Below are positions 8,101-63,603 of a DNA stretch of 64,000 bases, in pieces. A program made the position numbers and the translations under genes. The DNA is taken from assembly GCF_002149035.1 (NCBI RefSeq), contig NZ_NGFP01000002.1:1-64000 (forward strand), read 5' to 3'. The stretch comes from Streptosporangium minutum. GTDB taxonomy: Bacteria; Actinomycetota; Actinomycetes; Streptosporangiales; Streptosporangiaceae. Position 1 is the stretch's first letter. Each line of letters starts with the position of its first letter. The notes under the pieces are model-generated. The model had not been told where the DNA came from. It ran no database searches and saw only the letters and a program-made list of their open reading frames with translations.

Positions 8101-11100
8101 GCGGCGTCGAACAGTCCGCCCAAGGTCGTCGGGGTGATCGGCGCGGGGTGTCCGGCGCCGTCGGGCACCGGGTCGTCCGGCCGGGTGAGCAGGCCGGTCA
8201 GGGTCCGGGTGAACGTGCGCAGGATCGCCTGGGCGTGCGTCTCCCGCAGCAGTTCGCTGTCGTAGATCAGGTTGAATCGCGGCCGGCCGTCGAGCGTGCG
8301 CTCCACCACGAGCGTCAAAGGGTAGTGCGGGGCGCCCTCGTTCACGATGTCGGTGATGACGAACTCGTCGCCAGGCCTCCGCAGACCGTCCACATCGGTC
8401 GCGACGTCGAACACCACCAGGGTGTCGAACAGGGGACCGCCACCGACCTGGCGGCCGATCCTGGTCAGGGAGACATGCTGGTGCGGCAGCACCGCGCTCT
8501 GGTGTTCCCGCACCGAGGCGAGCAGTTCGCGCGCCGTGGTGGTGCCGTCCCATCGGGCGCGCACGGGGATCGTGTTGATGAGCAGGCCCACCATGTCCTC
8601 GATGCCGGGCACATCCGCGTCACGCCCGGACACCGTGGAGCCGAACACCACGTCCTTGCCCTGCAGGACGCCGCCCAGCGTCACCGCCCACGCGCTGTGC
8701 ACGGCGACGCTCAGTGGCACACCCGCTGACCGGACGGCCGCGTCGATGCCGTCATCCGGCTCCACGGCGGTTTCGGCGAACCGGTCGGACGGGGTGTGCC
8801 CCTCGGCGACCAGCGAAGGGCCGGGCAGGCCGGCGAGCTGATCGCGCCATACCCGGTCGCTCTCGTCGTCGTCGCGTGCGGCGAGCCGGCGCACGTGGCC
8901 GGGGAAGTCGCCCTGCGGGTACACGGTCCCTGGCGCGTGATACTCGGCCAGCAGCGCGCGCAGCATCGGGGGCACCGACCAGCCGTCGGCGATGATGTGG
9001 TGCACGGTCTGCACCAGGACGTTCCGGCCGGCCCCCGTGCGGATGAGGGTGTACCGCATCAGCGGGCCGGCGGCCAGGTCGAACCCGGCGCGGCGATCCC
9101 GCTCGGCGTAGTCGCGGATCTCGTCGCCGGTGATGCCGGGGCGCTCCAGCGTGGTGAACGGCGCCTCCACACCGCTCTCCAGCACCGAGACCACGCGGCC
9201 GTCGGCGAGGGCCGTGAACCGCGCGGCCAGGTTCGGGTACAGCGCGAGCAGCCGGGTGGTCGCCGCCGCGAGCCGGTCGGCGTCCACATCGCCGTCCAGC
9301 GTCAGTATCTGCTGCTCGACGTAGCTGCCCGCCGAGCCGTCGTCGAAGACCGAGTGGAAGTACAGGCCCTCCTGCAGCGGGGTCAGCGGCAGGATGTCCC
9401 GCAGCGCCGGGCCGTCCAGGGCGTCGACATCGGCCTGTGTGAGAGACACCGCGCCGAAGTCGCTGGGGGAGTGGCCGCCGTGGTCGAGCGCGGCCAGCCC
9501 TGCCAAGGCCTCCCGGAAGTACTCGCCGATCGTCGCGATGTCCTCGTCGGCGAACACTCCGTCCGGCCACGAGATGGTGGTGACCAGCTCGTACTCGCCG
9601 GTCGCGCCGGGTTCGGCGATCGCGTTGAACTCCAGGGCGCGCGGCAGGCGCATCCTCGGGTCGCGCTTCTCTCCCAACTGCCCTGTGGCGCCTGCGAGCC
9701 GCCAGTCACCGGACGCGCCCGCGTCGAAGCGGCCCAGGTAGTTGAACAGCACCTGCGGGGCGGACGCGTCGAACCCGATGCCGGCCAGGTATCGCAGGGC
9801 GCCATAGGACACGCCGTTGCCCGGCATCCGGGCGAGGTCTTCCTTGACCGACTTGAGCGCGGCGGACAGGTACTCGGGGGTAGTGAGATCGGCCGCCGCG
9901 CCAGGGTCCACGGTCACCGGGAACAGCGTGGTGAACCAGCCCACGGTCCGCGACAGGTCCGGCTCGAAGCCGGCGGCGCCCGCCACGAACCGTCCTTCGC
10001 GGCCGTGGCCCTCGAGTTCGATGTGCGCGAACGTCTGATCCTGCCCGAGACCGCGGCGCCACCGGGCGAGGGCGACGGCGAGCGCGGTCAGCAGCACGTC
10101 GTTGACGCCCGCGTGGAACCTCGCGGGAATCTCACCCAGCAGTGCGGCTGTGACCTCCGGGCCGACTGAGACGGCCCGGACCCTCTCGCGCGCGACGGTG
10201 TCGGATCCGGACAGCGGACGCCTGCCCAACGGCCCGTCCGCCTTCGGCAGGGGACGCTGGAAGTAGTCGCGGTCCATGTCGAACGCCGCGCGCTCAAGCA
10301 ACTGTGTCCAGCGCCGGAACGACGTGCCCACCGGAGGCAACTCGATCGGCGTGCCCGAGGTGAGCTGCCGCCACGCCGTGGCCAGGTCCTCCATCAGGAC
10401 CCGCCATGACACGCCGTCGATCACCACGTGATGGACGACCATGACCAGTTGTCGTGCCTCGCGCCGCCAGACGGCACGGAGCATCACGCCGTTGTCCGGG
10501 TCGAGCCCGCCGGTGGCGAGCTCGACGCACTCGCCGAGCGGCCGGTCGCTCTTCTGCCACCCCGCGACGGCCTGGTCCGCCTCCGGGATGTCGAAGCCCC
10601 AGCGGGCGCCGCGCACCAGCTTGGCGCGCAGCATGTCGTGCCGCCTGACCACGGCGGTGAGCATCTCGTCGAGGGCGTCGGCGGTCAGGTCCGCCGGGGT
10701 GTTCAGCACCACCGACTGCACGAAGCCGTCGATCGCGTCCGTGCTCTCGCCGAGCCACTGCACGATGGGCGCCCCTACGACGGAACCGGTCGCGACATCC
10801 TCGCGGTCCACGGGGGAGACACCGTCACGGCTCGCCGCCGCCGCCAGCGCCCCCACGGTGCCGTTGGCGAAGATCTGCGCCGCCGTGACGTGGAGGCCCG
10901 CGTCGCGCAGCGCGCTCAGCAGCGAGATCGCCAGAATGCTGTCTCCGCCGAGTCTGAAGAAGTTCTGGTCGACACCGACCTCGTCCAGCCGTAACACCGA
11001 CGCGACCGCCGCGCACACCACGCGCTCGTTCTCGGTGGTGGGCGGGACGGACGGCCCCGCCTCGACCGCCGGCTCCGGCAGCGCGCCCCGGTCCAGCTTG

Positions 11101-12974
11101 CCGTTCGGAGTGAGCGGGAACTCCCTCATCACGACGAAGCGCGCGGGCACCATGTACTCGACCATGTGCTCGACGGCCCACGCCCTGACCTCGTCCGCCC
11201 GCAGGTCCTCGCTCCCGGCCACCGGGATCACGTACCCCACCAGGTATGTGCCGCCCGCCGCGTTCTTCTTCGCGACGACACAGGTATGCCGTACCCGGGG
11301 GTGCTCCGCGAGACCGACCTCGACGTCCTCGATCTCCAGCCGCATGCCGCGGATCTTGATCTGGTTGTCGGCCCGGCCGAGGAAGTCCAGCGACCCGTCC
11401 GGGGCGAACCGCGCGAGGTCACCGGTCCGGTACAGCCGGGACCCGTCCCCGGCGAAAGGATTCGCCACGAACCGGGATGCCGTCAGGCCGGGCGCGTTGA
11501 CGTACCCGCGGCCCAGGAGGAACCCGCCCACGTACAGCTCGCCGCCGACACCGACCGGGACCGGGCGCAGCTCCTCGTCCAGCACGTACAACTCGGTGTT
11601 GGGGTTGGCCCTGCCGATCGACGTCGACAGGCGTTCCGCCGCGCCCCGGTAGATGACGTGCGAGACACCGATCGTCGTCTCGGCCGGGCCGTAGCCGTGG
11701 TACATGGGGATGTCGAGCCGGGTACGGAACCGTTCGTACAGCTCCGGGGTCAGCACCTCGCCGCCGCACCACACGTGCCTCAGGCTGTCCAGCCGCCCGG
11801 AGTCGCCCGCGATCTCCAGCAGCACGTCCAGCATGGACGACACCAGGTACGTGAAGGTGACGCGCTGCTCGGTGATCACGCTCAGCAGGTGGTGCGGGTC
11901 GCGTTCGCCGCCCGGCCGCAGGACCACCAGCCTGCCGCCGCACACCAGCGGCAGGAAGATCTCGTTGATGGAGATGTCGAACGACAGCGGCGCCTTGAAC
12001 AGCGACGCGTCGTCGGGGCCGAAGCCCAGGATCTCGTCGACCTGCCACAGCAGGCGCTCGCTGATCGCCTCGTGCCGGATCATCGCGCCCTTGGGCCGCC
12101 CGGTCGAACCGGACGTGAAGATCACGTATGCCAGGGCGGGGCCGGGGACGGCCACCTCGGTGTTCTCGGTGGGATACGGGCCGAACCGCCACTCGTCGAG
12201 GTCGACGGCCACGGCTTCCGGTTCACCCGCGTCGTGCTCGCCGGAGTCGTTGAGCTGCACCACGACCCGGGCGTCGTCGATGACGACCGCTCTGCGCGCG
12301 GCGGGCCAGTGCGGATCGAGCGGCACGAACGCGCCCCCCGCCTGGAGCACGCCGAGCAGGCCGATCACCATCTCGGCGGAGCGCCCCAGCGAGACGCCGA
12401 CGACCTGTTCGGCGGTGAGCCCGCGTTCGATCAGGTGGTGGGCCAGCTGGTTGGACAGCTCGGCCGCCTCACGGTAGGTCAGGGACCGATGTTCGTCGAC
12501 GATGGCGACGGCGTCCGGCCTGGCGCGAACCTGCTCACGGAACATCTCCACGATGGTCGGGCGGATCCGGTCGGCCTTGTTGTCGTTCCACTCGGCCAGG
12601 GCTTCGAGCCGTGCCGGCACGCTGGAAGGGCCGATGGTTCCCACGGGCCGATCCGGGAAGTCGGCCAGGTCGTCCAGTGCGAGCTGCGCGTCGGTCAGCA
12701 CGACGCCTTCGGGGACGGTGATGCTCCGGCCGTCGGCGCCGACCTCCCAGCCGCCGACCCCCTCCCCGCCGTTGTCGACCCATCCGAGGACGTCGGCGAA
12801 CAGGGTGCCGGAGGTGAGGTCGAGGCTGCCGGGGCTCTGACCCGTCGCCCAGTAGGCCAGCCCGATGGCGCACGCTCCGGTGATGGTCCTGTCGGGATAT
12901 TCGCCGGTCCGCCGGCGCACATCGGCCAGGCGCGAGGGAGAAAGCAGTGCGAGACGAGGGCTCGGTTCCATCAT
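2106..12974 (-). CDS. cchH: Coelichelin-type siderophore NRPS (A-T-E-C-A-T-E-C-A-T)
   Basis: 3622-residue trimodular peptide synthetase with no loading C domain and no thioesterase, the architecture and length of CchH. Approximate domains: A1 150-645, T1 660-735 (LGGDSI), E1 745-1200, C2 1210-1650 (HHIIADG), A2 1660-2150, T2 2160-2230 (AGGDSI), E2 2240-2650, C3 2655-3080, A3 3100-3540, T3 3550-3622 (LGGHSM). Specificity codes read by alignment to GrsA are DINYWGGIG (A1, N5-formyl-N5-hydroxy-Orn), DFWNIGMVH (A2, Thr) and DMENLGLIN (A3, N5-hydroxy-Orn), as in coelichelin assembly. Both E domains keep their active-site motif (HHVVIDG, HHLAVDS). C3 is atypical (YHLLLWDG). The hydroxylase, formyltransferase and MbtH partner expected for this enzyme are not in the window. 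An iron box lies just upstream. Confidence 0.96.
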
Positions 12975-13001
12975 CGAAGACTCAGTCGCCCTTTCAGGTA
13001 T

Positions 13002-13020
13002 GAAAGTCAGCCAAACCTAA
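13002..13020 (-). promoter_or_regulatory. Iron box upstream of the NRPS
   Basis: On the minus strand the sequence reads TTAGGTTTGGCTGACTTTC. It matches the left two-thirds of the IdeR/DmdR consensus TTAGGTTAGGCTAACCTAA (13 of 19 by eye). It lies in the 55-base gap between the half-exporter stop and the NRPS start, so the NRPS probably has its own iron-repressed promoter in addition to read-through. Confidence 0.7.
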
Positions 13021-13029
13021 TTGAATTCC

Positions 13030-14817
13030 TCAACTGCCTTCTTGCCACGCGCGCCACAGCCGCGCGTACCGGCCGCCCAGAGCCACCAGTTCCTCGTGGG
13101 TGCCGTGCTCCACAACGCGTCCCGCGTCCAACACGGCGATGCGGTCCGCCGCCATCGCCTGGGTCAGCCGGTGCGCCACGAACAGCGTGGTGCGGCCCAG
13201 GCACACGGCCGACACGGCCCGCTCCAACTCGGCGGCGCCCTGGCTGCCCGCCTCCGCGGTCGACTCGTCCAGCACCACCACCGGCGACCGGCCCAGTACC
13301 AGCCGGGCCAGGGCGATCTGGGCGACCTTGGTGCCGTCCAGGCGCTCGCCGCCCTCGCCGACCATGGTGTTCAGCCCATCGGGCAGGGCCGCGACCCACG
13401 TCTCGGCGCCGGCCGTACGCAACGCGTCCATCAGCTCGGCGTCGGTCGCCTCCGGCGCGGCCAGCCGCAGGTCGTCGGCGAGCGGACCGGAGAACACGTG
13501 CGTCTCCTGCGTCAGGATGCTCACCAGGGCCCGTACCCCGGCCTCGTCCAGACCGGCGAGGTCGGTCGACCCGACGCGCACCGACCCGGCCTGAGGGGTC
13601 CCGATGCCCGCGATCAGCGCGGCCAGGGTCGTCTTGCCCGCGCCCGTCGCCCCCACCAGCGCGAGCGAACCGCCCGCCGGGATCACCAGGTTGACGTCCC
13701 GCAGGACCGGCTGCTCGGAATCGGGATAGCCGAACGTCAGCCCCTCCACCGTCACCGGGTACGGCCCGGCGTCCGCCGGGGCGACGGCCACCCGGCCCAC
13801 CAGCCTTTCCTCCGTGGCCTCGCCCAGCACCCCGACCAGCCGGGTCAGACTCGCGCCCGACTTCTGCGCCTCGTCGAAGGTGAACATGATGGCGCCCAGC
13901 GGAGTGAACAGCCGGTGGAACAGCAGTGGGGCCACCGACGCCTCACCCAAGGTGACGGCATCGGCCTCCAGCAGGACGTAGCCCACCACGATGATCAGGA
14001 CCAGCCCGATGAACTCGGCGCGGTTCTCCCTGCCGACGAACCGGCCGAAGAACCGGAACACTTCGACGCCGAGATCGCGCACCCGCCACGACTCGCGGGT
14101 GACCTGCTCGCGGAAGGCGTCCTCAAGGCGGTACGCCCGGACGGTGTCGATCCCGTTCAGGCCACTGATCAACGCCTGCGCGCGATCGGCCTGGGCTTCC
14201 CGCTGCTTCTGGTAGAGCGGTGCGGACCGGGGGAGATACCAGCGGAGGGCCAGCGCGTAGGCGGGCAGCGCGCCGGCACCCGCCAGGCCGAGCCGCCAGT
14301 CCAGCCCGAACATGCCGACCGTGGCGATGACGACCAGCACTCCCGCCGAGAACACCGTGGGGACGGCCGTCCGGATGCCCTTGGACACCACGGCCACATC
14401 GTCACCGACCCTGGACAGCACGTCGCCCCGGCCGACCTGCTCGATCCGCGCGCTCGGCATTCCCAGCACCGCCTGGACGGCGCCCTCCCGCAACCGCGCG
14501 AGCAGATCCGCGCCCAGCCGCCCGGTCAGGTACGTCGACGCCGCGGCGGCCGCCGAGCCGAGCAGCGCGGCGGCCACCAGCAGCGTCCCGATCGTGATCA
14601 GGATCGACTGCGGTTCGCCCCCGACCACCCCGTCGACCACCCGGCCGAGCAGGAGCACCGGCAGCACCTGGAACGCCGCCCCGGCCACCGTGGTGAGCAC
14701 GGTGGCGGCCGTCAGCCATGGCACCTCGCGGGAGTGCGCCGCGACCCATCGGGCGGCCTCGCGTCCGGTCGCCGTGCGCAGGATGGCCGGGGCGACGCGC
14801 GTGTCGGCGGTGCTCAC
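13030..14817 (-). CDS. cchG: ABC half-exporter with degenerate signature motif (CchG-like)
   Basis: 595-residue half-transporter with an N-terminal membrane domain (about residues 35-320) and a C-terminal ATPase. Walker A (GATGAGKTT), Walker B (VVVLDEST) and the switch His (FVAHR) are intact, but the ABC signature is ERLDGTKVAQIALARL instead of LSGGQ. It is the mirror image of the half-transporter at 419-2119, which keeps LSGGQ and loses the rest. The two should assemble into a heterodimeric siderophore exporter in which this subunit's Walker motifs and the partner's signature build the single active site. GTG start; the gene follows the binding protein by 46 bases and precedes the NRPS, the position of cchG in Streptomyces coelicolor. 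Confidence 0.9.
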   Translation of the reverse strand: MSTADTRVAPAILRTATGREAARWVAAHSREVPWLTAATVLTTVAGAAFQVLPVLLLGRVVDGVVGGEPQSILITIGTLLVAAALLGSAAAAASTYLTGRLGADLLARLREGAVQAVLGMPSARIEQVGRGDVLSRVGDDVAVVSKGIRTAVPTVFSAGVLVVIATVGMFGLDWRLGLAGAGALPAYALALRWYLPRSAPLYQKQREAQADRAQALISGLNGIDTVRAYRLEDAFREQVTRESWRVRDLGVEVFRFFGRFVGRENRAEFIGLVLIIVVGYVLLEADAVTLGEASVAPLLFHRLFTPLGAIMFTFDEAQKSGASLTRLVGVLGEATEERLVGRVAVAPADAGPYPVTVEGLTFGYPDSEQPVLRDVNLVIPAGGSLALVGATGAGKTTLAALIAGIGTPQAGSVRVGSTDLAGLDEAGVRALVSILTQETHVFSGPLADDLRLAAPEATDAELMDALRTAGAETWVAALPDGLNTMVGEGGERLDGTKVAQIALARLVLGRSPVVVLDESTAEAGSQGAAELERAVSAVCLGRTTLFVAHRLTQAMAADRIAVLDAGRVVEHGTHEELVALGGRYARLWRAWQEGS

Positions 14818-14863
14818 GCCCGGACCGCGGCGGGCCGGGGACGGAACACGTCTGCGGGCATCT

Positions 14864-15913
14864 CTAGCCGGCCGACTTGACGAGTTCGTCGATCGCGTAC
14901 GGCAGGGACAGCAGGGTGCCCTGCGACATGGCCGCGCCGATCGCCGGGCCCTCGCTGTCCAGCAGGTACGACACCTTGCCGTTCTTGACCGCGGGCAGGT
15001 TGGCGAACAACTTGAACTTCTTCAGCGCCTCCTGGTCCGCCTGGTCGGCGATGACGAAGATGCGGTCGACATCGATCAGGTCGATGCGCTCGGGGGACAG
15101 CACGGTGTAGAAGCTGCCGCCCGCGAGCTTGTCGATCTCCGTCGCGCCCTTGAAGCCGATGCCCGACACCAGTCGCCCGCGCACGTCGGTGGTGGTGAAC
15201 GGCGCGACCGAGTTCTTGTACCAGGACACCGCGACGGCGGTCCGGTCGGCGAACTCCGGGTGCGCCTTGCGGGCCGCGTCGAGCTTGTCCTGGATGCCCT
15301 GCACCAGCTTGGCGCCCTCGTCCGCCTTGCCGAGCGCCTTGGCGATGTGAACCGCGTTGTCCTGCCACGGCGCGCTGAACGGCTCCTTCTCGCCCTTGGT
15401 GCGGCCCACCGTCGGGGCGATCTTGGAGAGCCGGTCGTAGGCGGCCTGGTCGATCTCGGAGTAGACCGCGATGATCAGGTCGGGCCGCAGGGCGGCGATC
15501 TTCTCATAGTTCGGGCCGGGGTCCCCGTTGTTCATGATGACGTCGGGACGGGTGTCCCCCCACTTGTCCTTCACCCACGGCCACTGGGTGTTGACGTCGG
15601 GAGTCTTGCCCGGCGGGTTCGGGTACTGGTCGACCATGCCGACCGGCTTGATGCCGAAGGCCAGGATGGCCTGGTCGTCGGTGTAGCCGACGGAGACGAC
15701 CCGCTGGGGGGCCTTGGGGATCTGCGTGGACCCGAACGCGTGCTCCACGGTGAGCGGGAACGCGCCGCCCGTGGTGGCCGCGGTGTCGCCGCTCGGCTTG
15801 TCCGCCGAGCCGGAACCGCATCCCGCGAGGAGGCCGGCGCTGAGGGCCACAGCGGACAGTACCGCCGCGAAGCGCCGCAAGGTCTTCGTAACTGTGGTTC
15901 GGTGGGGGGGCAT
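14864..15913 (-). CDS. cchF: Ferric-siderophore binding lipoprotein
   Basis: 349-residue periplasmic-type binding protein of the FecB/FhuD class that should capture ferric coelichelin and deliver it to the two permeases upstream in the operon. It has a charged N-terminus, a hydrophobic stretch and the lipobox LLAGCG near residue 33, so it is a lipid-anchored surface protein. The body carries typical family features (PKAPQRVVSVGYTDDQAIL, LRPDLIIAVYSE). I chose the ATG at 15913, eight bases after AAGGGA; a TTG 24 bases upstream is a weaker alternative. An excellent iron box lies about 75 bases upstream. Position matches cchF. Confidence 0.93.
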   Translation of the reverse strand: MPPHRTTVTKTLRRFAAVLSAVALSAGLLAGCGSGSADKPSGDTAATTGGAFPLTVEHAFGSTQIPKAPQRVVSVGYTDDQAILAFGIKPVGMVDQYPNPPGKTPDVNTQWPWVKDKWGDTRPDVIMNNGDPGPNYEKIAALRPDLIIAVYSEIDQAAYDRLSKIAPTVGRTKGEKEPFSAPWQDNAVHIAKALGKADEGAKLVQGIQDKLDAARKAHPEFADRTAVAVSWYKNSVAPFTTTDVRGRLVSGIGFKGATEIDKLAGGSFYTVLSPERIDLIDVDRIFVIADQADQEALKKFKLFANLPAVKNGKVSYLLDSEGPAIGAAMSQGTLLSLPYAIDELVKSAG

Positions 15914-15985
15914 CCAGAATCCCTTGCTTCCGTGCAATCGGCTGCAACCCTTTATGAGGAGCAGGAAAACCGTAGCACGCGGGAA

Positions 15986-16004
15986 TTAGGTGAGGCTAAC
16001 CTTG
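15986..16004 (-). promoter_or_regulatory. Iron box upstream of cchF
   Basis: The plus strand reads TTAGGTGAGGCTAACCTTG, matching the IdeR/DmdR consensus at 16 of 19 positions by eye. It is the best of the three iron boxes here. It governs the binding protein and probably the exporter half downstream. It overlaps the stop codon of the ATPase remnant at 15986-16225, so the reading frame ends inside the operator. Confidence 0.85.
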
Positions 16005-16225
16005 CTTGTGGCGGGCCGGACACGGGTGCGGCCGATCGGCACGATGGGTGGCCGGTCGCTCACCCGGTCGCCGATGGCCCCGTGCGGCATCGTGACCCCC
16101 GCGCATCCCGGATCGTGCGGGTCGAGCCCCTCGCCCACGTCCTTGGCCGTGAGCTCGGGGATGTCCTCGCTGCCCGGCACGACCGTTCCCCCGGCGGGTT
16201 TGAGCGGCCGCCCGCCTGTCCTCAC
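15986..16225 (-). pseudogene. C-terminal remnant of the siderophore-import ATPase (CchE-like)
   Basis: 79-codon frame starting at a GTG that overlaps the upstream permease stop. It is not a complete domain, but its sequence follows the C-terminal end of FecE/CchE ATPases. GGTVVPGSEDIPELTAKDV matches the family pattern G-V-x-x-G-x-x-x-x-(V/L)-T-x-x-x-V, and DRVSDRPPIVPIGR matches the closing DPVSGTPLVVPIGR. Walker A, signature and Walker B, roughly the first 190 residues of the family, are missing. In the coelichelin cluster the ATPase gene sits exactly here, between the second permease and the binding protein, so this looks like an in-place deletion that kept the junction with the permease. 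Whether the stub is translated is unknown. Confidence 0.58.
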
Positions 16226-17292
16226 ATCCCCCTTCGGAGGTTCGCCCTCACCAGCAGGTAGACGAGGAAAGGGCCGCCGATCGCGGCGGTGACCACGCCG
16301 ACCGGGAGAGTGATCGGCAGCGCCGTACGCGCCACCAGGTCAGCGCCGATCAGCAGCAGCGCGCCCAGCAGCCCGGAGGCCACCAGCGGCGGCGTCGGAT
16401 ACCGCGCCAGACGCATCGCCACCTGCGGCGCCACCAGTGCGACGAACGGGACCGGGCCCGCCGCGCTCACCGCCACACCGGCCAGCAGCACCGCGCACAG
16501 CAGCAGGACCGCCCGCACCATCGAGTACCGGACGCCCAGTCCCGCCGCGACCTCGTCGCCGAAGTGCAGCGGCCTGAGGTGGAACGCGACGCACGACACG
16601 ACGGCCAGGAGGGCGAGCGTGCACCACAGCGCCACCCAGACCTCCTCCCACGACCGGTTGTCCAGCGAACCGACCAGCCATGCCTGGGCCCGGGCCACGT
16701 CCCGGATGTCGGCCGTGACCAGCAGCCAGGCCGTGATCGCCTCCATCACGGCGCTCACCGAGATGCCGATGAGGATGAGCCGGAGGCCGTCGATCCCGCG
16801 CCGCCAGGCCAGGAAATACACCAGCAGACCAGTGCCGAGACCGCCCGCGAGTGCCGCGGCGGACAGGCCCACGGAGCTGACGATCGCCGCGGCGGCCCCA
16901 CCCGACACCGTCACCAGGAACACCGCGACCGCGCTCGCGCCTCCGGTGATCCCCAGGATGTCCGGACTGGCCAACGGGTTGCGCGCGACGGACTGCGTGA
17001 TCGCCCCGGACACCCCCAGCGCGACCCCCACGATGAGCCCGGCCAGGGCGCGCGGCATCCGCAGATCCATGATCACGAACTCGTCGACCCGCTCACCCCG
17101 GCCGAGGAGCGTGGCGATCACCTGTGGCAGGCCGATGGGGAAGTCCCCGAGGCCGATGGACAGGCAGAACACCAGAAAGGCCGCCGCCGCCAGCAGCAGC
17201 GTGACGAACACCATCCATGGCCGCCACACGAACGACGCGTAGCCGAGCCGCACGCCCGGAGCCGACGACTGCTTCACCGCTGTCTTGTTCAT
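16222..17292 (-). CDS. cchD: Siderophore ABC transporter permease (FecCD family)
   Basis: 356-residue integral membrane protein with about nine to ten hydrophobic segments, one half of the inner-membrane channel for ferric siderophore. Family landmarks include RMPRALAGLIVGVALGVSG near residue 70, the NPLASPDILGI loop near 110 and VPFVALVAPQ near 300. The ATG at 17292 overlaps the preceding permease stop (ATGA) and is preferred to an in-frame start 24 bases upstream. Its natural ATPase partner, expected downstream, is reduced to a stub, so import would need an ATPase encoded elsewhere, for example the one at 43214-43966. Confidence 0.93.
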   Translation of the reverse strand: MNKTAVKQSSAPGVRLGYASFVWRPWMVFVTLLLAAAAFLVFCLSIGLGDFPIGLPQVIATLLGRGERVDEFVIMDLRMPRALAGLIVGVALGVSGAITQSVARNPLASPDILGITGGASAVAVFLVTVSGGAAAAIVSSVGLSAAALAGGLGTGLLVYFLAWRRGIDGLRLILIGISVSAVMEAITAWLLVTADIRDVARAQAWLVGSLDNRSWEEVWVALWCTLALLAVVSCVAFHLRPLHFGDEVAAGLGVRYSMVRAVLLLCAVLLAGVAVSAAGPVPFVALVAPQVAMRLARYPTPPLVASGLLGALLLIGADLVARTALPITLPVGVVTAAIGGPFLVYLLVRANLRRGM

Positions 17293-18344
17293 ACCGTCTT
17301 GAACTTTCCGCGCCACACCAGCGCCGCGAAGAACGGGGCGCCGACGAGAGCGACGACGACGCCTGCCTGCAACTCGCCCGGTCGTGTCACCACGCGCCCC
17401 ACGATGTCACAGGCCAGCAGGAGGACCGCGCCGAGCAGACCCGCGCACGGCACCAGCCAGCGATAGTCCGGTCCGGTGAGATACCGGGCCACGTGGGCCA
17501 CCATGAGCCCGAGAAACGCGATGGGGCCGCATGCCGCCGTCGTCGCGCCCGCCAGCAGGGTGATGGCGACGATGCCGACGGTCCGGCTCAGTGCGATGTT
17601 CACACCCAGCCCTCGCGCCATGTCGTCACCCAGGTTGAGCAGATTGATGGCGGGCAGTGTGGTCGACGCCAGCACCAACCCGGCCACGATGAACGCGGAC
17701 ACCGGCCAGATGACGTCGAATTCGACACCGGCCACAGAGCCCGCGTTCCAGAACCGCAGCGCGTTCAGCGAAGCCTGGTCCGACAGCGCGACCGCATTGG
17801 TCATCGCCGCCAGGAACACCGCGACCCCCTGCCCGGCCAGCGCGAGCGTCAACGGGCTGCCGGCGCCCCTGCCGAGGCTCGCCAGCCCGAACACGACGAC
17901 ACCGGCGACCGCCGCCCCCAGGAAGGCGAACCAGACGTATTGGTATGGATTGGTGAGCCCGAACAGGAGGGTCACCGACACCACGGCGAACGAGGCGCCG
18001 GAGTTCACCCCCAGCAACCCCGTGTCGGCGATCGGGTTACGCGTGTATCCCTGGATCAACGCCCCGCTGACCCCCAGGGCGATGCCCGCCACGACCGCGA
18101 GCACGGTCCGGGGCACCCGTACGGTCTGCACGATGAGCGTGATCTCGGTGAGCCGCTGGTCGGAGCCCGGCGCCGCGAACAATCCGTGCCACACCTCCGC
18201 GAGACTCAACGCGCGTGCGCCGACAGCCAATGACACCGCCCCCGTGACCAGGAGAATCACCACAAGCGCGCCCAAGCCCACAACCCGCCGCCAGCGGGCC
18301 ACTGTGGCCTCGGACGCGGGACGTTTCCCCACAGTCGTACTCAT
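17289..18344 (-). CDS. cchC: Siderophore ABC transporter permease (FecCD family)
   Basis: 351-residue FecCD permease, first gene of the siderophore import operon. After a short cytoplasmic N-terminus it has a series of hydrophobic helices and the family motifs VRVPRTVLAVVAGIALGVSGALIQG, NPIADTGLLGVNSGA and CGPIAFLGLMVAH. It should pair with the downstream permease, translated by ATGA coupling. The nearest upstream regulatory element is the iron box at 18644-18662, about 300 bases away, which may serve both divergent directions. Confidence 0.93.
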   Translation of the reverse strand: MSTTVGKRPASEATVARWRRVVGLGALVVILLVTGAVSLAVGARALSLAEVWHGLFAAPGSDQRLTEITLIVQTVRVPRTVLAVVAGIALGVSGALIQGYTRNPIADTGLLGVNSGASFAVVSVTLLFGLTNPYQYVWFAFLGAAVAGVVVFGLASLGRGAGSPLTLALAGQGVAVFLAAMTNAVALSDQASLNALRFWNAGSVAGVEFDVIWPVSAFIVAGLVLASTTLPAINLLNLGDDMARGLGVNIALSRTVGIVAITLLAGATTAACGPIAFLGLMVAHVARYLTGPDYRWLVPCAGLLGAVLLLACDIVGRVVTRPGELQAGVVVALVGAPFFAALVWRGKFKTV

Positions 18345-46384: not shown

Positions 46385-46424
46385 CAGGGCGGAAGGTCCC
46401 ACGCCGGTGGGACCTTCCGCCCTG
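46385..46424. promoter_or_regulatory. 18-base perfect inverted repeat upstream of the first stress-protein gene
   Basis: CAGGGCGGAAGGTCCCAC (46385-46402) is exactly complementary to GTGGGACCTTCCGCCCTG (46407-46424) with a 4-base loop. It could be a strong terminator. However, each arm carries GGGACCTTCCGCCC, which resembles the DosR/OsdR-like boxes before other stress-protein genes here, and it lies 48 bases before the ATG, so an operator role is equally possible. Confidence 0.6.
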
Positions 46425-52870: not shown

Positions 52871-53749
52871 ATGAACAGATCCGTAATCGCCGGCACCGAC
52901 GGCTCTCCCGCCGCGTCGGATGCGGTGCTGTGGGCCGCGCGTGAGGCCGTACTGCGTGCCAGGCCCCTGAGGATCGTTCACGTTCGCGAGCAGTGGGCCG
53001 GCGACGTCCCCGTCCACACGATGAAGAACTACCGGGATCCAGAGGCGAAGCACTGCGGGGCGATGCTCGCGGACGCGGCTGAGGCTGCGCGGGCGAGTGC
53101 GCCTGGACTGGAGGTCACCACCGCACTCGTTGACGGAGACCTCGTCCAAAGGCTCCTGGAGGAGTCCGAAGCTGCCGATCAGCTCGTGATCGGCAGCCGG
53201 GGCCAGGGCGGGTTCGCCGGGCTGCTGCTGGGCTCGGTCGGCATGGGCGTCGCAGGCCACGCCGGCTGTCCCGTCGTCGTCGTCCGAGGCGACTCCGCGA
53301 CACGCCACGGCCGGATCGTGGTCGGGGTCGACGGATCGGAGGGGGCGGAGGCCGCGCTCGCTCATGCCTTCGCCGAGGCCGAGATCCGAGGTGCCGTCCT
53401 GCACGCCGTCCATGCCTGGCAGCCCCCTGGCCTGTCCACGCCGGCCGTCGAGAGCGGATCGATGGGGGAGGGGATCGGCGCTGAAAGAAGTGCGTTCCTC
53501 CGGCGGGTGCTGGCTCCATGGCGGGAGCGGTTCCCCCGTGCCACGGTGACCGAGTCGGTCGTCTGCGGTCACCCGGCCGGAGCCCTCCGCGACGCCTCCA
53601 CCGAGGCCGACATGGTCGTCGTCGGCTCCCGCGGCCACGGCCTGATCGCCTCCGCCGTCTTCGGCTCGGTCAGCCACGGCGTCCTTCACCACGCCCACTG
53701 TCCCGTCGCCGTCGTCCGTCCGAAGGGGCCGGCTCCGGAGCCGGCGTAG
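52871..53749 (+). CDS. Universal stress protein, tandem UspA domains
   Basis: 292-residue two-domain Usp. Domain one starts VIAGTDGSPAASDAVLWAA and has the ATP motif GSRGQGGFAGLLLGS. Domain two starts IVVGVDGSEGAEAALAHAF and has GSRGHGLIASAVFGS. Both motifs fit G-x2-G-x9-GS, so both domains may bind ATP. ATG at 52871 after GAGGAGC. It begins the right part of the stress island. No DosR-like block was recognised in its upstream 200 bases. Confidence 0.94.
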   Translation: MNRSVIAGTDGSPAASDAVLWAAREAVLRARPLRIVHVREQWAGDVPVHTMKNYRDPEAKHCGAMLADAAEAARASAPGLEVTTALVDGDLVQRLLEESEAADQLVIGSRGQGGFAGLLLGSVGMGVAGHAGCPVVVVRGDSATRHGRIVVGVDGSEGAEAALAHAFAEAEIRGAVLHAVHAWQPPGLSTPAVESGSMGEGIGAERSAFLRRVLAPWRERFPRATVTESVVCGHPAGALRDASTEADMVVVGSRGHGLIASAVFGSVSHGVLHHAHCPVAVVRPKGPAPEPA

Positions 53750-53804
53750 TCCCCCGGACGGGGCAGGCGCCCGGACTCGGTCGGCGGGAGAAGACGGTGC
53801 GGTG

Positions 53805-53882
53805 GCGCGCCTGATCGGCTGCGGCGCCGGAGAATCCTCAGCCGCGCGCCTGATCGGCTGCGGCGTCGGAGAATCCTCAGCC
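53805..53882. repeat. 39-base tandem duplication
   Basis: Two adjacent 39-base units (53805-53843 and 53844-53882) differ at one base. The unit contains GCCTGATCGGCTGCGGCG and GGAGAATCCTCAGCC. They lie between two stress-protein genes, outside coding sequence. One unit length is 13 codons, and the frame through it is open, but no gene is supported. Confidence 0.85.
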
Positions 53883-53908
53883 ACACGTCCGGACTCCCCG
53901 GCGGGGGA

Positions 53909-53949
53909 AAGGGCGAAGGTCCTGTTCATGCCGGGACGATCGCCCCTGG
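53909..53949 (+). promoter_or_regulatory. DosR/OsdR-like double box upstream of a stress-protein gene
   Basis: Box one, AAGGGCGAAGGTCCTG, reads CAGGACCTTCGCCCTT on the other strand. Box two is CCGGGACGATCGCCCCTGG, a near-palindrome around CGATCG. Both recall GGGAC-N4-GTCCC sites of DevR-type regulators. The same pair in the same order precedes the gene at 57584. Box two ends 57 bases before the ATG. Confidence 0.6.
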
Positions 53950-54006
53950 GGAAAACGCCGGCGCCGCAGTCGGATGGAAGCGCAGCAGAAGCGAGAGGAG
54001 CATGTC

Positions 54007-54858
54007 ATGAGCGAATCGATCACCGCTGCGACGGACGGCTCGCCCGCCGCCCTGGCGGCCGTGAAATGGGCGGCTGATGACGCCGCCCGCAGAGGGTTGC
54101 CGTTGAGGATCGTCCACGTTGTGGACCGCTGGCCGTATGGCGTCGCCGCGTTCCCTCCGCCCGACTGGGCCGAGCTCGCGGCGCGCGCCGGCGAGCAGGT
54201 GCTCGCCGAAGCGATCACCGTGGCCACGAGATACCGGCCGGACGTCCGGGTGACGACCGAACTGATCGAGGGATCACCGGCCAAGGTTCTGCGGGAGCAG
54301 GCCGGCACGGCCACCGAGCTCGTGATCGGCAGCCGCGGCCTGGGCGGCTTCGTCGGCGCCCTGCTGGGCTCAATGGTCCTCCACGTGGCCGGTCATGTGC
54401 CCGGCACCGTCGTGGTCGTCAGGGCGGACGCGGGCCAGCCGCACGGTGAGATCGTCGTGGGTGTCGACGGCTCCGCCGAATGCGAGCCCGCGCTGGCCTA
54501 CGCCTTCGAGCAGGCCAGGCTGCGCGGCTGCGCCCTGCGCGCCGTCAACGCCTGGCAGCGGCCGGTGTACGGCCTCATACCGGAGATCCCGTCCGACATA
54601 GAAGAAGTTCACCGTTTCCACCAGCGTATGGTGCGGGACAAGCTCGGCACCTGGCGGGAGAAGTTTCCCGAGGTGGAAGTGGTGGAGGACGTTCAGGACG
54701 CGCATCCGGTCAAGGCCCTGACCGACGCCTCGGCCAGGGCCGGCCTGGTCGTCGTGGGCTCGCGGGGGGTGGGCGCGGTCGGCTCGGTGCTGCTGGGCTC
54801 CGTCAGCCGCGGCGTGCTGCACCACGCCTACAGCCCGGTGGCGGTGGTCCACTCGTGA
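54007..54858 (+). CDS. Universal stress protein, tandem UspA domains
   Basis: 283-residue two-domain Usp: ITAATDGSPAALAAVKWAAD with ATP motif GSRGLGGFVGALLGS, then IVVGVDGSAECEPALAYAF with GSRGVGAVGSVLLGS. The interdomain region is closest to the paralogue at 58700-59599; an 80-base stretch is nearly identical at DNA level. ATG at 54007 follows GAGAGGAG by eight bases. A DosR/OsdR-like double box lies directly upstream, suggesting induction by low oxygen or stasis. Confidence 0.94.
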   Translation: MSESITAATDGSPAALAAVKWAADDAARRGLPLRIVHVVDRWPYGVAAFPPPDWAELAARAGEQVLAEAITVATRYRPDVRVTTELIEGSPAKVLREQAGTATELVIGSRGLGGFVGALLGSMVLHVAGHVPGTVVVVRADAGQPHGEIVVGVDGSAECEPALAYAFEQARLRGCALRAVNAWQRPVYGLIPEIPSDIEEVHRFHQRMVRDKLGTWREKFPEVEVVEDVQDAHPVKALTDASARAGLVVVGSRGVGAVGSVLLGSVSRGVLHHAYSPVAVVHS

Positions 54859-54864
54859 CCACCG

Positions 54865-54890
54865 GGCTCGTACGGCCGGCCTGACGAGCC
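54865..54890. terminator. Hairpin between convergent Usp and GH65 genes
   Basis: GGCTCGT (54865-54871) pairs with ACGAGCC (54884-54890), with a further GGCCGGCC palindrome in the loop. It lies six bases after the Usp stop and before the stop of the convergent phosphorylase gene. Confidence 0.5.
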
Positions 54891-54953
54891 GCCGACCGGC
54901 CGTTCACATCCATCGGCCGCCCGGGACCGCTGCCCGGCCGCACCGGCCGGCGA

Positions 54954-57095
54954 TCACGGTCGCGCCTGTGCCTCGAACAGGCAGACGACCCCGGCCATCG
55001 CGCCGAGATGGATCCCCTCGGCGGTGGTGCCTCCCTGGAGGTCCTTCACGTCGTTGTTCAGCGCCTCCACCAAGAAGGGGTGGGAGGCGCCGGGGCGCAG
55101 GCGTGCCAGCACCCCGGCGTGGACGACCGCGCTCAGCGTGGAGCCGTGGCAGGTGCGGGCGAGGTAGTAGTCCACCGTCCGTGCCGCCATCTCGGCGTTC
55201 CACCCGTAGCCGAGGCCGGTCAGGATCTCACCGACCCCTTCCTGCCCCAGCAGGTGCAACAGCATGAGCACGTCGGCCTGCTTGGAGACCTTGTACCTGT
55301 TCGACGTGTCCCCTTCGGCCTCCAGGATGCGGTCCAGCCGCCGGATGTCCGTGTACTTCTCCCGGTAGGCGGCCCAGTCCAGCTCCTCCAGCTCCGCATA
55401 TCCCTCGAACTGGCTGATCACCCCGTCATGGAAGTCCACCCGCATCCGCCGGGACATGCCGGTGAAGAGGTCGATCTCCTGTCGGCTGACCCCTTCGGCG
55501 CCGACCAGATCGATCATGTCCAGGACCCGGCGCATCAGCCATGCGGTCATGATGTTGGTGTAGGCGTTGTTGTCGAGGCCCGGCCCGGTGCGGCCCGGGT
55601 AGCCGTCGTGGTACTCGTCCGGGCCCATCACACCGCGGATCGCGTAACGCCCCTGCTCGCAGGTCGCGATCGAGGCGAAGAACCGGGCAACCTCCAGCAG
55701 CAGCTCCCCGCCGAAGCCCGCCAGGAAAGCGGTGTCCTCGGTCGCCCGGTAGTGCTGCCACACGTTGTAGGCGACGGCCAGGCCGACGTGGCGCTGCAGG
55801 TGCGAGCGGTCGGGCAGCCAGCGGCCGGAGCGGGGGTTGAAGTGCAGGCGCGGTGTCTCCTCCCGGCCGTCGCTGCCGCTCTGCCAGGGGAACATCGCTC
55901 CGGTGTGCCCGGCGGCGCGGGCGGCCCAGCGTGCCTCGGGCAGGCGGCGCCACCGGTATCTGAGCAGCGCCCGGGTGATGTCCGCGAAGCGCGGGGCGAG
56001 GAAAGGGAAGACGAACAGGTCGTCCCAGAAAACGTGGCCCCGGTAGGCCTCGCCGTGCAGGCCGCGGGCGGGTAGCCCGGCGTCGAGTTCCGCGACGTGC
56101 GGGGAGGCCGTCTGCAGCAGGTGGAAGAGGTACAGGTTGAGGATCTGCTGCACCTCGGTGTCCTCGGCGGTGACATGCGCCCGCTGCCACAGCCGGTCCC
56201 AGGCTCGGGCGTGCCGCTTGAGCAGGCAGGGAAAGCCGCCCGCGCGCACGACCGCGGTTCTGGCCGCGGCCTCGCTCTCGGCGACGGCCCGGTCCCGGGA
56301 GGTGTACAGGGCGACGACCTTCTCCACGGTGACCCCTTCGCCCGCTTTCACCTCGACGGCCCGCTCATCGCTCACCCAGCCCTCTTGGACGGCCTGGTCA
56401 TCACCGGACGCGCTCTCCGCGACGCCGGTACGGCTGCGCCCGCCGGCCAGCGTGGTGCGGGCGGCGAGCGCGATCTCCACCCGGGAGGTCGCGGTGCGCG
56501 TCAGCAGTTCGATCACACTGTGGGCGGCGTGCCCGCGGATCGGGACGAGATGCCGATCGGCCAGCCCGCGGTAACGGGCGACCCCGGCGTTGGTGACGCG
56601 CCCGTCGAGCGCCGAGCGGATCTCCAGCGTCCCGCTCCAGTTCTCCGGAACGATCGTCATGGTCAGGGCGGCCAGGTGCGGGTCGTCCATCGAGACCAGG
56701 CGGTGCTGCTCCAGGCGGGTGATCCGGCCGCGGGAGTCGCGGGTCCGCAGGAGCCGGGTGAGCACCCCCCGGCGCATGTCGAGCGTGCGGCGGTCGGCCA
56801 GGATCTCGACACCGTCGGGGGCGAACCAGTCGCCGCCGTCGGCACGGAAGGTGAGGGGCAGCCAGTTCGGCGCGTTGACGAGATCCTCGTTCTCCGCCGA
56901 GTGGCCGGCGACCTGGGAGACGAGCCGGTCGTAGCAGCCGGCGACGTAGGTGCCGGGATAGTGCACCTCATCGGCGCGTGACTCCGGCGCGGCACCCCGG
57001 GTGGCGAAGTAGCCGTTGCCGAGCGCGGTCAGAGCCTCCCTCAGCCCCTCCTGGGCGGGGTCGAAGCCGTCATAGACGAGGAGCCAGGGGTTCAC
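54954..57095 (-). CDS. Glycoside hydrolase family 65 (disaccharide phosphorylase-type)
   Basis: 713-residue GH65 enzyme, which cleaves trehalose, maltose or kojibiose-type disaccharides, usually with phosphate to give beta-glucose 1-phosphate. An N-terminal beta-sandwich domain (to about 260) precedes an (alpha/alpha)6 barrel. The general acid Glu is in GVMGPDEYHDG near 475; HVFWDDLFVFPFL, SKQADVLMLLHL and GTTAEGIHLGAMAG are family signatures. The GTG at 57095 (VNPWLLVYDGFDP) is the usual N-terminus. Its normal partner, a beta-phosphoglucomutase gene, overlaps upstream but is internally deleted, so the product sugar phosphate would need another mutase. Confidence 0.94.
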   Translation of the reverse strand: MNPWLLVYDGFDPAQEGLREALTALGNGYFATRGAAPESRADEVHYPGTYVAGCYDRLVSQVAGHSAENEDLVNAPNWLPLTFRADGGDWFAPDGVEILADRRTLDMRRGVLTRLLRTRDSRGRITRLEQHRLVSMDDPHLAALTMTIVPENWSGTLEIRSALDGRVTNAGVARYRGLADRHLVPIRGHAAHSVIELLTRTATSRVEIALAARTTLAGGRSRTGVAESASGDDQAVQEGWVSDERAVEVKAGEGVTVEKVVALYTSRDRAVAESEAAARTAVVRAGGFPCLLKRHARAWDRLWQRAHVTAEDTEVQQILNLYLFHLLQTASPHVAELDAGLPARGLHGEAYRGHVFWDDLFVFPFLAPRFADITRALLRYRWRRLPEARWAARAAGHTGAMFPWQSGSDGREETPRLHFNPRSGRWLPDRSHLQRHVGLAVAYNVWQHYRATEDTAFLAGFGGELLLEVARFFASIATCEQGRYAIRGVMGPDEYHDGYPGRTGPGLDNNAYTNIMTAWLMRRVLDMIDLVGAEGVSRQEIDLFTGMSRRMRVDFHDGVISQFEGYAELEELDWAAYREKYTDIRRLDRILEAEGDTSNRYKVSKQADVLMLLHLLGQEGVGEILTGLGYGWNAEMAARTVDYYLARTCHGSTLSAVVHAGVLARLRPGASHPFLVEALNNDVKDLQGGTTAEGIHLGAMAGVVCLFEAQARP

Positions 57096-57390
57096 GCCTT
57101 CTCCCGTGGAGTCGTGGTCGCGCCAGGTCGGTGACGACGAGGTCGGCTCCGGCGGCTCGCGGGGAACCTCCGTTCCCGTGCCGGTCGACGCCGACGACGA
57201 CGCCGAAGCGACCTGCCCCGGCGAACGGCCGGAACCGCTCGCCGGACCGCTCGGCGCGCCCGCGCAGGAAGGCGTCGAAGCCCCGCTTCCACGCGGCGGC
57301 GTGCACCCTGGCCGTATCGGTGATGCCCCCATCGGTGTCGAAGATCATCGCGGCTGTCCGTCCGAGGTCCATGACCGTCGGGAGCGTCAT
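57070..57390 (-). pseudogene. Internally deleted beta-phosphoglucomutase (HAD family)
   Basis: 106-codon frame. It begins like HAD beta-phosphoglucomutases (MIFDTDGGITDTARVHAAAW, KRGFDAFLRGRA), keeping the nucleophile Asp of DxD. It then jumps at about residue 57 to the family's C-terminal stretch (GRFGVVVGVDRHGNGG, AAGADLVVTDLA). The cap domain and most of the core, roughly 150 residues, are missing, while the frame stays open and overlaps the GH65 start as an intact gene would. It cannot be an active mutase. Confidence 0.8.
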
Positions 57391-57500
57391 GGAGCACCCC
57401 CTTCCACCTGCACGGTACGGCGCGGCTCGCGGCCGCCGTCAGGGCTGATCGGCCCCATTGCCCAGGGACCTTCGTCGGAAGCGCGGGCCCCGCGGCCACA

Positions 57501-57540
57501 GAGGGCGAAGGTCCCCCTGGTCGGGGACGATCGCCCCTGG
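57501..57540 (+). promoter_or_regulatory. DosR/OsdR-like double box upstream of a stress-protein gene
   Basis: GAGGGCGAAGGTCCCC (minus strand GGGGACCTTCGCCCTC) is followed nine bases on by TCGGGGACGATCGCCCCTGG. This is the same pair, order and near-equal spacing as at 53909-53949, and both are followed by GGGGAAA. A third look-alike, AGGGACCTTCGTCGG, is at 57464. Box two ends 43 bases before the Usp ATG. Confidence 0.62.
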
Positions 57541-57583
57541 GGAAACCACCCGTGTCGCGGTCCGATGGGTGGCGGGGGAAGTC

Positions 57584-58492
57584 ATGACCGAATCGATCGC
57601 CGTCGGGACGGACGGCTCGACCGCCGCGACCGCGGCCCTGGAATGGGCGGTCGACGACGCCGCCCGCAGCGGGCTGTCCTTGCGGATCGTCCACGCCGTG
57701 GACCGGTGGCCGTACGAGATCCTTGAATTTCCCGCACCGGGCCGGCCCGACCACTTGACGCGCCTCGGTAAGCAGGTGCTCGCCGAGGCGGCCAGGGCAG
57801 CCGCGGAACGCGGGCCGGACGTCTGCGTGACCACCGAGCTGATCGAAGGGACGCCGGTCGAAGTCCTGTGGGAGCAGGCCGAGACGGCCGTCGAATTGGT
57901 GATCGGCAGCCGCGGCCTGGGCGGTTCCGTCGGATCGCTGCTCGGCTCGGTCCCCATCCGCCTGGCGGGTCACGTGCGCGGCGCCGTGGTGGTCGTGAGA
58001 CCGGGCGTCGGAGAGCCACACGGTGAGGTGGTCGTGGGCATCGGCGGTTCCGCCGAATGCGAGCCCGCTCTGGGCTTCGCCTTCGAACAGGCTCGACTGC
58101 GAGGACGCCCGTTGCGGGCGGTCCACGCCTGGCGAGCACCGGTTCACGGGTTCACGCCTGAGGCCGCCCACGACATGGACGAGGTCCGGCAGGGACACCG
58201 CCGGGTGGCCGCGGACCGGCTCGCCGGCTGGCAGGAGAAATTCCCGACGGTCGACGTGGTGCAAGACGTGACATGTGCGGACCCGGTGCCGACTCTCGTG
58301 GCCGCCTCGGCACGAGCCGGCCTGCTCGTCGTGGGGTCCCGCGGTCTCGGCGCCGTCGGCTCGGCCGTACTGGGGTCGGTCAGCCGCGGGGTCCTGCACC
58401 ACGCCCCCTGCCCCGTCGCGGTCGTACGGCACGATCCGGCATCGCCGCCGTCTCCGGGGAACGTCGTGGTGGGGCTCAAACAGCACGACTGA
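57584..58492 (+). CDS. Universal stress protein, tandem UspA domains
   Basis: 302-residue two-domain Usp. Domain one: IAVGTDGSTAATAALEWAVD with GSRGLGGSVGSLLGS. Domain two: VVVGIGGSAECEPALGFAF, where the usual Asp of VGVDGS is Gly, with GSRGLGAVGSAVLGS intact. A C-terminal tail (SPPSPGNVVVGLKQHD) is longer than in its paralogues. Start at 57584 after GGGGGAA, because all sister proteins begin at this point. Divergent from the phosphorylase locus and preceded by a DosR-like double box. Confidence 0.94.
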   Translation: MTESIAVGTDGSTAATAALEWAVDDAARSGLSLRIVHAVDRWPYEILEFPAPGRPDHLTRLGKQVLAEAARAAAERGPDVCVTTELIEGTPVEVLWEQAETAVELVIGSRGLGGSVGSLLGSVPIRLAGHVRGAVVVVRPGVGEPHGEVVVGIGGSAECEPALGFAFEQARLRGRPLRAVHAWRAPVHGFTPEAAHDMDEVRQGHRRVAADRLAGWQEKFPTVDVVQDVTCADPVPTLVAASARAGLLVVGSRGLGAVGSAVLGSVSRGVLHHAPCPVAVVRHDPASPPSPGNVVVGLKQHD

Positions 58493-58699
58493 CAGCGAAA
58501 GCTACGTGAAATCGTCGCGTTCGCAGCGCGTACCCGCAGCCTGCTCACTCCATCCATGGACATAACGGGTAGCTCGCTTACCAGCACCTGTCGGGAAACA
58601 GGCCGAAAGTCCCTGCGCGGATGGTCCAGCGCCTCTGGGATCTCCCGATCCCCATGTCCGACGCTTGAACGGACAGGAACCCTACGTGGGGAGAAGAAC

Positions 58700-63521: not shown

Positions 63522-63585
63522 GTGATCGGAAGAGGAGGCTCTGATAATCGCCGTGCCTCTCACATGGTGACCGGAGGTCCTGTGG

Positions 63586-63603
63586 GGAAAGGACTTTCGC
63601 CGG
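63586..63603 (+). promoter_or_regulatory. DosR-like box upstream of the last stress-protein gene
   Basis: GGAAAGGACTTTCGCCGG resembles the (G)GGAC(C/T)TTCG(C/G)CC boxes found before other stress genes here. It lies 54 bases before the ATG at 63657. A second partial copy, GGAGGTCCTGTGG, precedes it. Confidence 0.42.

Follow-up and report, generated by a model that had tools for sequence, protein, structure and literature searches.

A candidate DevR/OsdR-type operator pair upstream of stress-protein genes in Streptosporangium minutum

The window analysed here is a stretch of 64,000 nucleotides of Streptosporangium minutum (assembly GCF_002149035.1, contig NZ_NGFP01000002.1, positions 1 to 64,000; this contig is C112 below). 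In this window a block of about 45 bases is found twice, each time upstream of a gene encoding a tandem-domain stress protein (Usp), and the two copies flank a GH65 family gene and a shortened gene of the HAD type (Table 1). An earlier note, made from the letters alone, had placed the block at 53909-53955 and 57501-57547, with 9-10 variable bases between its halves and two stress-protein genes behind it, and had read it as a DosR/OsdR operator pair. We recovered both copies within one base of these positions, the measured spacers fall in the range given, and both downstream genes are usp genes.

Table 1. Blocks, boxes, genes and regulator locus. Positions without a prefix are window positions; L013 is a locus on contig C520.
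Feature	Position	Strand	Sequence or match	Remark
Block 1	53910-53954	+	two boxes, then TGGGGAAA	box starts 23 bp apart; profile C112:53908-53949, E 0.00125
Block 1, reverse box	53910-53923	-	AGGACCTTCGCCCT (read on - strand)	10-base spacer after it
Block 1, forward box	53933-53946		GGGACGATCGCCCC	
Candidate -10 region	53970-53977	+	TCGGATGG	37 bp after forward-box start of block 1
Tandem-domain Usp gene after block 1	54007-54858	+	Pfam Usp 4e-48	
GH65 family glycoside hydrolase/phosphorylase gene	54954-57122 (longest open reading frame to 57332)	-	Pfam Glyco_hydro_65m 8.9e-116, 65N 4.3e-74	
Shortened HAD (beta-phosphoglucomutase-like) gene	57070-57390	-	TIGR02009 2.8e-7, under its cut-off	before GH65
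Box, HAD-GH65 side	57441-57456		AGGGCTGATCGGCCCC	conserved in five genomes
Box	57464-57479	+	AGGGACCTTCGTCGGA	score 9.0; conserved in five genomes; 23 bp from box 57441
Block 2	57502-57545	+	two boxes, then TGGGGAAA	box starts 22 bp apart; profile C112:57500-57540, E 4.4e-7
Block 2, boxes	57502-57515 (reverse), 57524-57537 (forward)			9-base spacer between
Candidate -35	57538-57543		TGGGGA	
Candidate -10 region	57561-57568	+	TCCGATGG	37 bp after forward-box start of block 2
Tandem-domain Usp gene after block 2	57584-58492	+	Pfam Usp 2.4e-49	
Perfect inverted pair	46387-46422		two GGGACCTTCCGCCC boxes, 22 bp apart	before Usp gene starting 46472; profile place C112:46385, E 1.9e-6
Strong single box	58600-58613	-	GGGACTTTCGGCCT	before Usp gene starting 58700; score 20.5
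Weak two-box pair	63570-63603			before Usp gene starting 63657; profile place C112:63570, E 0.008
Profile place	C520:19741		E<0.01	usp/GH65 promoter before devR
Profile place	C520:24452		E<0.01	start region of open reading frame without Pfam match, preceding devS
Single boxes	C16:2358, C101:6685			before pyridoxamine-oxidase-like genes
Single box	C368:32795			between helix-turn-helix/pyridoxamine-oxidase gene and cytochrome bd subunit I gene
Single box	C16:6713			before Usp gene
Single box	L010:14586			before hemerythrin gene
Box pair	C112:98243			no clear downstream gene
devR-like gene	L013:4266-4910			contig C520
DevS-like kinase gene	L013:5028-6803	opposite to devR		the two genes face each other

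The two blocks have the strings AGGGCGAAGGTCC (at 53910 and 57502) and GGGACGATCGCCCCTGGGGAAA (at 53933 and 57524) in common, and all of their non-spacer bases match (35/35); 40 shuffles of the window gave a mean of 0.025 repeated 20-mers and no repeated 22-mer. The left half of the block, read on the opposite strand, is GGACCTTCGCCC and the right half is GGGACGATCGCCCC; each block therefore consists of one box in two inverted copies. The 57.5-kb usp promoter can be aligned in four other genomes of the genus (five genomes in all). This promoter is divergent (usp on one side, HAD-GH65 on the other) and has four boxes, at 57441, 57464, 57502 (reverse) and 57524, of which the two nearer HAD-GH65 are paired at offset 23 and the two nearer usp at offset 22. 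Directly after the last box, TGGGGAAA is kept in the aligned promoters (it is altered in genomes G012 and G009). TCCGATGG stands 37 bp from the start of the last box in all five aligned genomes, and TCGGATGG is found at the same 37 bp also at the usp gene beside devR, as at the 54-kb paralog. The -35-like TGGGGA and the -10-like TCSGAT, 17 bp apart, would make up the core promoter.

A devRS pair, which the earlier note had proposed to look for, is present on contig C520, with a box that starts 51 bp 5' of devR. The regulator has a NarL-type receiver and a LuxR-type helix-turn-helix domain (Pfam Response_reg and GerE), and its best match in PDB is M. tuberculosis DevR (E 6.5e-81), followed by VraR (9.5e-44). 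Asp54, Thr82 and Lys182 of DevR, for which phosphorylation, cooperativity and DNA contact are reported (PMC3029386, PMC4973870), are all kept in an ungapped alignment of 214 residues. In the kinase, two GAF domains precede HisKA_3 and HATPase_c; its GAF-A has DevS as best match (5.6e-51), and the counterparts there of His149 and Tyr171, described as the proximal haem ligand and the distal residue of DevS (PMC4082495), are retained. It is most likely of the haem-GAF DevS type, with haem binding predicted; S. canum has the closest DevS (98%). On the window's contig, 39 kb beyond the window end (C112:103030-104742), lies the gene of a second DevS-like kinase (63% identity). About 5 kb from devRS (L013:11455-13136) there are a flavohaemoprotein gene (Pfam Globin) and an Rrf2/NsrR-like gene (named by reading), which suggests nitric oxide (NO) handling nearby.

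A shortened GH65 open reading frame (ORF; L013:2953-4269) lies immediately 5' of devR and overlaps its start by 4 bases. It is identical to the window GH65 at 272 of 390 residues (70%, with about the first half covered), and two box pairs (2743/2765 and 2887/2910) are found 5' of it; together they are a second copy of the window's usp/GH65 divergent module. In genome G009 a full-length GH65 match stops 104 bp 5' of devR.

To scan the 9.58-Mb genome (548 contigs) we used a two-box profile of 42 columns, made from 21 pairs of five other genomes and none of this genome (21 of 23 pairs were used; one duplicate and L065:15870 were dropped). With 150 of 15780 first-look candidates scored in full, six distinct places have E<0.01, four of them in the window and two at devRS; these best places are Usp promoters of the window and devRS. 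Patterns for a single box are weak alone: GGGACNNTNGNCCC has 42 matches (37 for the reversed pattern) and GGGACNNTCSNCCY has 70 (44 reversed). Among the GGGACNNTCSNCCY matches 12 are of the form GGGACYTTCSGCCY, against 2.47 expected; three of the 12 are inside predicted genes (C16:1377, C109:5809 and C164:11894) and two further ones (C518:5851 and C520:24473) inside the long form of an ORF. Likely targets include devR and the gene preceding devS, along with several usp genes, pyridoxamine-oxidase-like genes and a cytochrome bd oxidase gene.

The link between box and regulator was examined in 80 loci chosen by the DevS protein alone, independent of the motif, with a 16-site box matrix (five of 21 sites were dropped as weak: 57464, 63584, 59710, L010:15266 and L013:2745). 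The matrix sites were picked from pattern matches by position, and enrichment within their own loci is therefore partly circular. The DevS-chosen loci contain 205 boxes at a score of at least 12, compared with 22 in shuffled and 21 in reversed sequences (about ninefold). Box pairs at a score of at least 8 have offset 22 in 23 cases and offset 23 in five, and each other offset at most three times; 19 of the 23 offset-22 pairs are head-to-head, and six of the 28 pairs at 22-23 bp are in the same direction. Such a pair is present in 22 of the 80 loci, and no pair at 22-23 bp was found in their shuffled and reversed controls. The spacing seen in L051-L070 is biased, because those loci were picked with a fixed-gap pattern; that of the DevS-chosen loci is not. 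DevR orthologs are encoded in 43 of the 80 loci, 40 of them with at least 200 bp upstream, and a box (score of at least 8) is found within 250 bp 5' of devR in 32 of these 40, compared with 194 of 2000 random segments. The box starts 49-53 bp 5' of the gene in 30 of these 32 cases. The box 5' of devR across the family is the strongest link of the box to the regulator. As supporting evidence only, a pattern match is found less than 10 kb from devR in 14 of 28 genomes, with 0.2 expected (hand-compiled from the matches listed, for genomes in both lists).

The block stands at both of two paralogous usp genes from a single cluster, so it might be common to them only through a recent duplication of DNA with the usp gene, an outcome that the earlier note had set against its own reading. 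Their coding parts also have exact 24-mers in common (e.g. 54322/57899) because the genes are paralogs, and the repeat alone thus shows only paralogy. The note had argued from unconserved flanks to selection: the upstream flank is indeed poorly conserved (47.8% identity for 53700-53900 in the alignment of the two copies, compared with 84.4% for the 45 aligned positions of the block, 67.6% from block to ATG and 72.7% in the coding part), but the repeat by itself is no proof of selection. A recent duplication is very improbable all the same, as the Usp proteins are only 65.0% identical (184/283) and the third codon positions 61.5%, which makes the duplication old; moreover, the promoter aligns across genomes and similar pairs stand before other genes. 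An RNA hairpin (terminator or leader structure) is another way to read an inverted repeat, and the arms are partly complementary, the boxes being inverted. In 21 sequences 77.4% of cells pair, a value reached by 6 of 500 shuffles; 11 of 500 reach the covariation score. Inverted DNA boxes of one protein, however, would yield an equal excess of pairing. Six pairs are changed on both sides (shuffled mean 6.0), pairing is broken in at least 10 of the 21 sequences at five of 16 positions, and same-direction pairs occur at the same spacing. With compensatory changes at the shuffled level, a hairpin is not favoured and we find it scarcely credible.

A different response regulator of the NarL type might bind the same box and act at these sites, as might a group of such regulators with DevR among them. 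For OsdK of S. coelicolor, SCO3818 is reported as a further partner (PMC5069765), and a comparison of 200 family genomes yielded no sign that the strict pair tracks DevR: it is found in 103 of 182 genomes with DevR and in nine of 18 without (15 candidates scored per genome). In G008, a genome of the same genus, the boxes are kept; all 99 candidates were scored and none exceeded 43% identity, so that a recognisable DevR was not found. Its only DevS piece is at a contig end, so its devR may either be lost or sit in an assembly gap. But in the S. minutum genome only this regulator reaches E<=1e-45 against DevR (among 74 of 171 candidates scored), and the near-constant position of the box before devR is what autoregulation predicts. 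We therefore consider a different or additional regulator improbable. The distribution of pairs and G008 count also against DevR control in general, as do several further points: G005 and G010 have DevR and few or no pairs, no NCBIfam cut-off for a named regulator was reached (the best was MadR, 194 of 300 bits), the TCSGATGG element was not found at the 46-kb pair, and the OsdR signal in Streptomyces itself is described as unconfirmed (PMC5069765). Taking these into account, we put at about 0.87 the probability that the block is a DevR/OsdR-type operator pair upstream of a Usp core promoter, under DevS-DevR control. The operator-pair reading of the earlier note thus gains support from the genome scan, the devRS pair and the age of the duplication.

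Under DevS-DevR control, the haem-GAF kinase would sense low oxygen or NO and phosphorylate DevR at Asp54. DevR would then occupy jointly two head-to-head sites 22-23 bp apart (about two helical turns), immediately 5' of the Usp core promoter, and RNA polymerase would be recruited to a weak promoter (TGGGGA, 17 bp, TCSGAT). The intergenic region at 57.4-57.6 kb, with its two pairs, would drive transcription of usp to one side and of HAD-GH65 to the other. More tentatively, and with somewhat less than even confidence, we propose that DevR operators in Streptosporangiaceae share one stereotyped layout, in which two asymmetric boxes stand head-to-head at 22-23 bp and, at usp promoters, TGGGGAAA comes next and TCSGATGG lies at a fixed 37 bp. 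Divergent usp/HAD-GH65 promoters would use this module twice, which would couple the breakdown of disaccharides to oxygen sensing and, via the GH65 copy immediately 5' of devR, to how the regulator itself is expressed.

Other boxes in the window differ in strength. Of the related single boxes listed in the earlier note (46385, 57464, 59709 and 63586), 57464 is kept across five genomes and pairs with a box at 57441 that had been missed, 46385 and 63586 belong to pairs, and 59709 is unsupported (matrix score -5.2, no partner). The strong box at 58600, before another usp gene, had been overlooked; we looked for a significant partner box and found none. Pairs similar to 46387-46422 are found in G002, G006, G011 and G012. 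This palindrome stands before Usp and CBS genes; G011 and G012 have a second DevS-like gene about 1.8-2.5 kb downstream of such a pair, where this genome has PNPOx-like and flavin-monooxygenase-like ORFs instead (named by reading). An exact 22-mer direct repeat (53805 and 53844; window 53805-53865) lies immediately 5' of block 1. Against four relatives, about 0.44 kb is missing from the interior of the HAD gene (tblastn, two pieces in L051, L057, L062 and L065); longer copies are found in G002, G008, G011 and G012. At window positions 2106-18344 an ORF of 3622 codons has transporter-like neighbours and may belong to a siderophore cluster (ORFs read by eye).

The circuit is a known one in a new example, and the strict operator geometry is its most interesting detail. 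It would extend the dormancy/low-oxygen regulon of mycobacteria and Streptomyces to Streptosporangium and its relatives; among the open-access titles that our searches listed, we found none on this regulon in Streptosporangiaceae. Promoter designs that can be tested follow from the geometry, and there is a list of targets (Usp, GH65, cytochrome bd, pyridoxamine-oxidase-like genes and devR). A GGGAC-N4-G-N-CCC type operator is present before devR itself and before usp genes, and the box fits both published consensus sequences, AGGGCCGATCGGCCCT of S. coelicolor OsdR (PMC5069765) and GGGACTTNNGNCCCT of M. smegmatis DosR (PMC6448022); box 57441 agrees with the former at 14 of 16 bases.

Sites predicted for OsdR (e.g. 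AGGGACCTTCGGCCCC and GGGGACGATCGTCCCC) are reported at the regulator gene and at nearby clustered Usp and pyridoxamine-oxidase genes (PMC5069765). The system described here is like OsdR/OsdK in the type of box and in having sites at the regulator, Usp and pyridoxamine-oxidase genes. It differs in that most strong sites are GGGAC[C/T]TTCGGCC, frequently paired head-to-head at 22-23 bp, that GH65 and cytochrome bd genes bear sites, and that a shortened GH65 ORF precedes devR.

For M. tuberculosis DevR, cooperative binding at two or more close sites is reported, with the proximal one overlapping -35 (PMC3029386, PMC5360333), and narK2-Rv1738 is described as one divergent promoter with four DevR sites (PMC7018068). 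Reported DosR targets include Rv2005c and Rv2006/otsB1, the latter given as a 'putative trehalose/maltose hydrolase' (PMC2867773). The mycobacterial DevR/DosR system thus resembles this one in its sets of close boxes, proximal box at -35, four-site divergent promoter and consensus. If, as we assume, Rv2005c is Usp-type and Rv2006/otsB1 contains HAD and GH65 domains, the usp/HAD-GH65 arrangement would be a further parallel. The gene order is different: Rv3134c-devR-devS form one operon in M. tuberculosis, whereas in S. minutum devR and devS face each other and usp diverges upstream.

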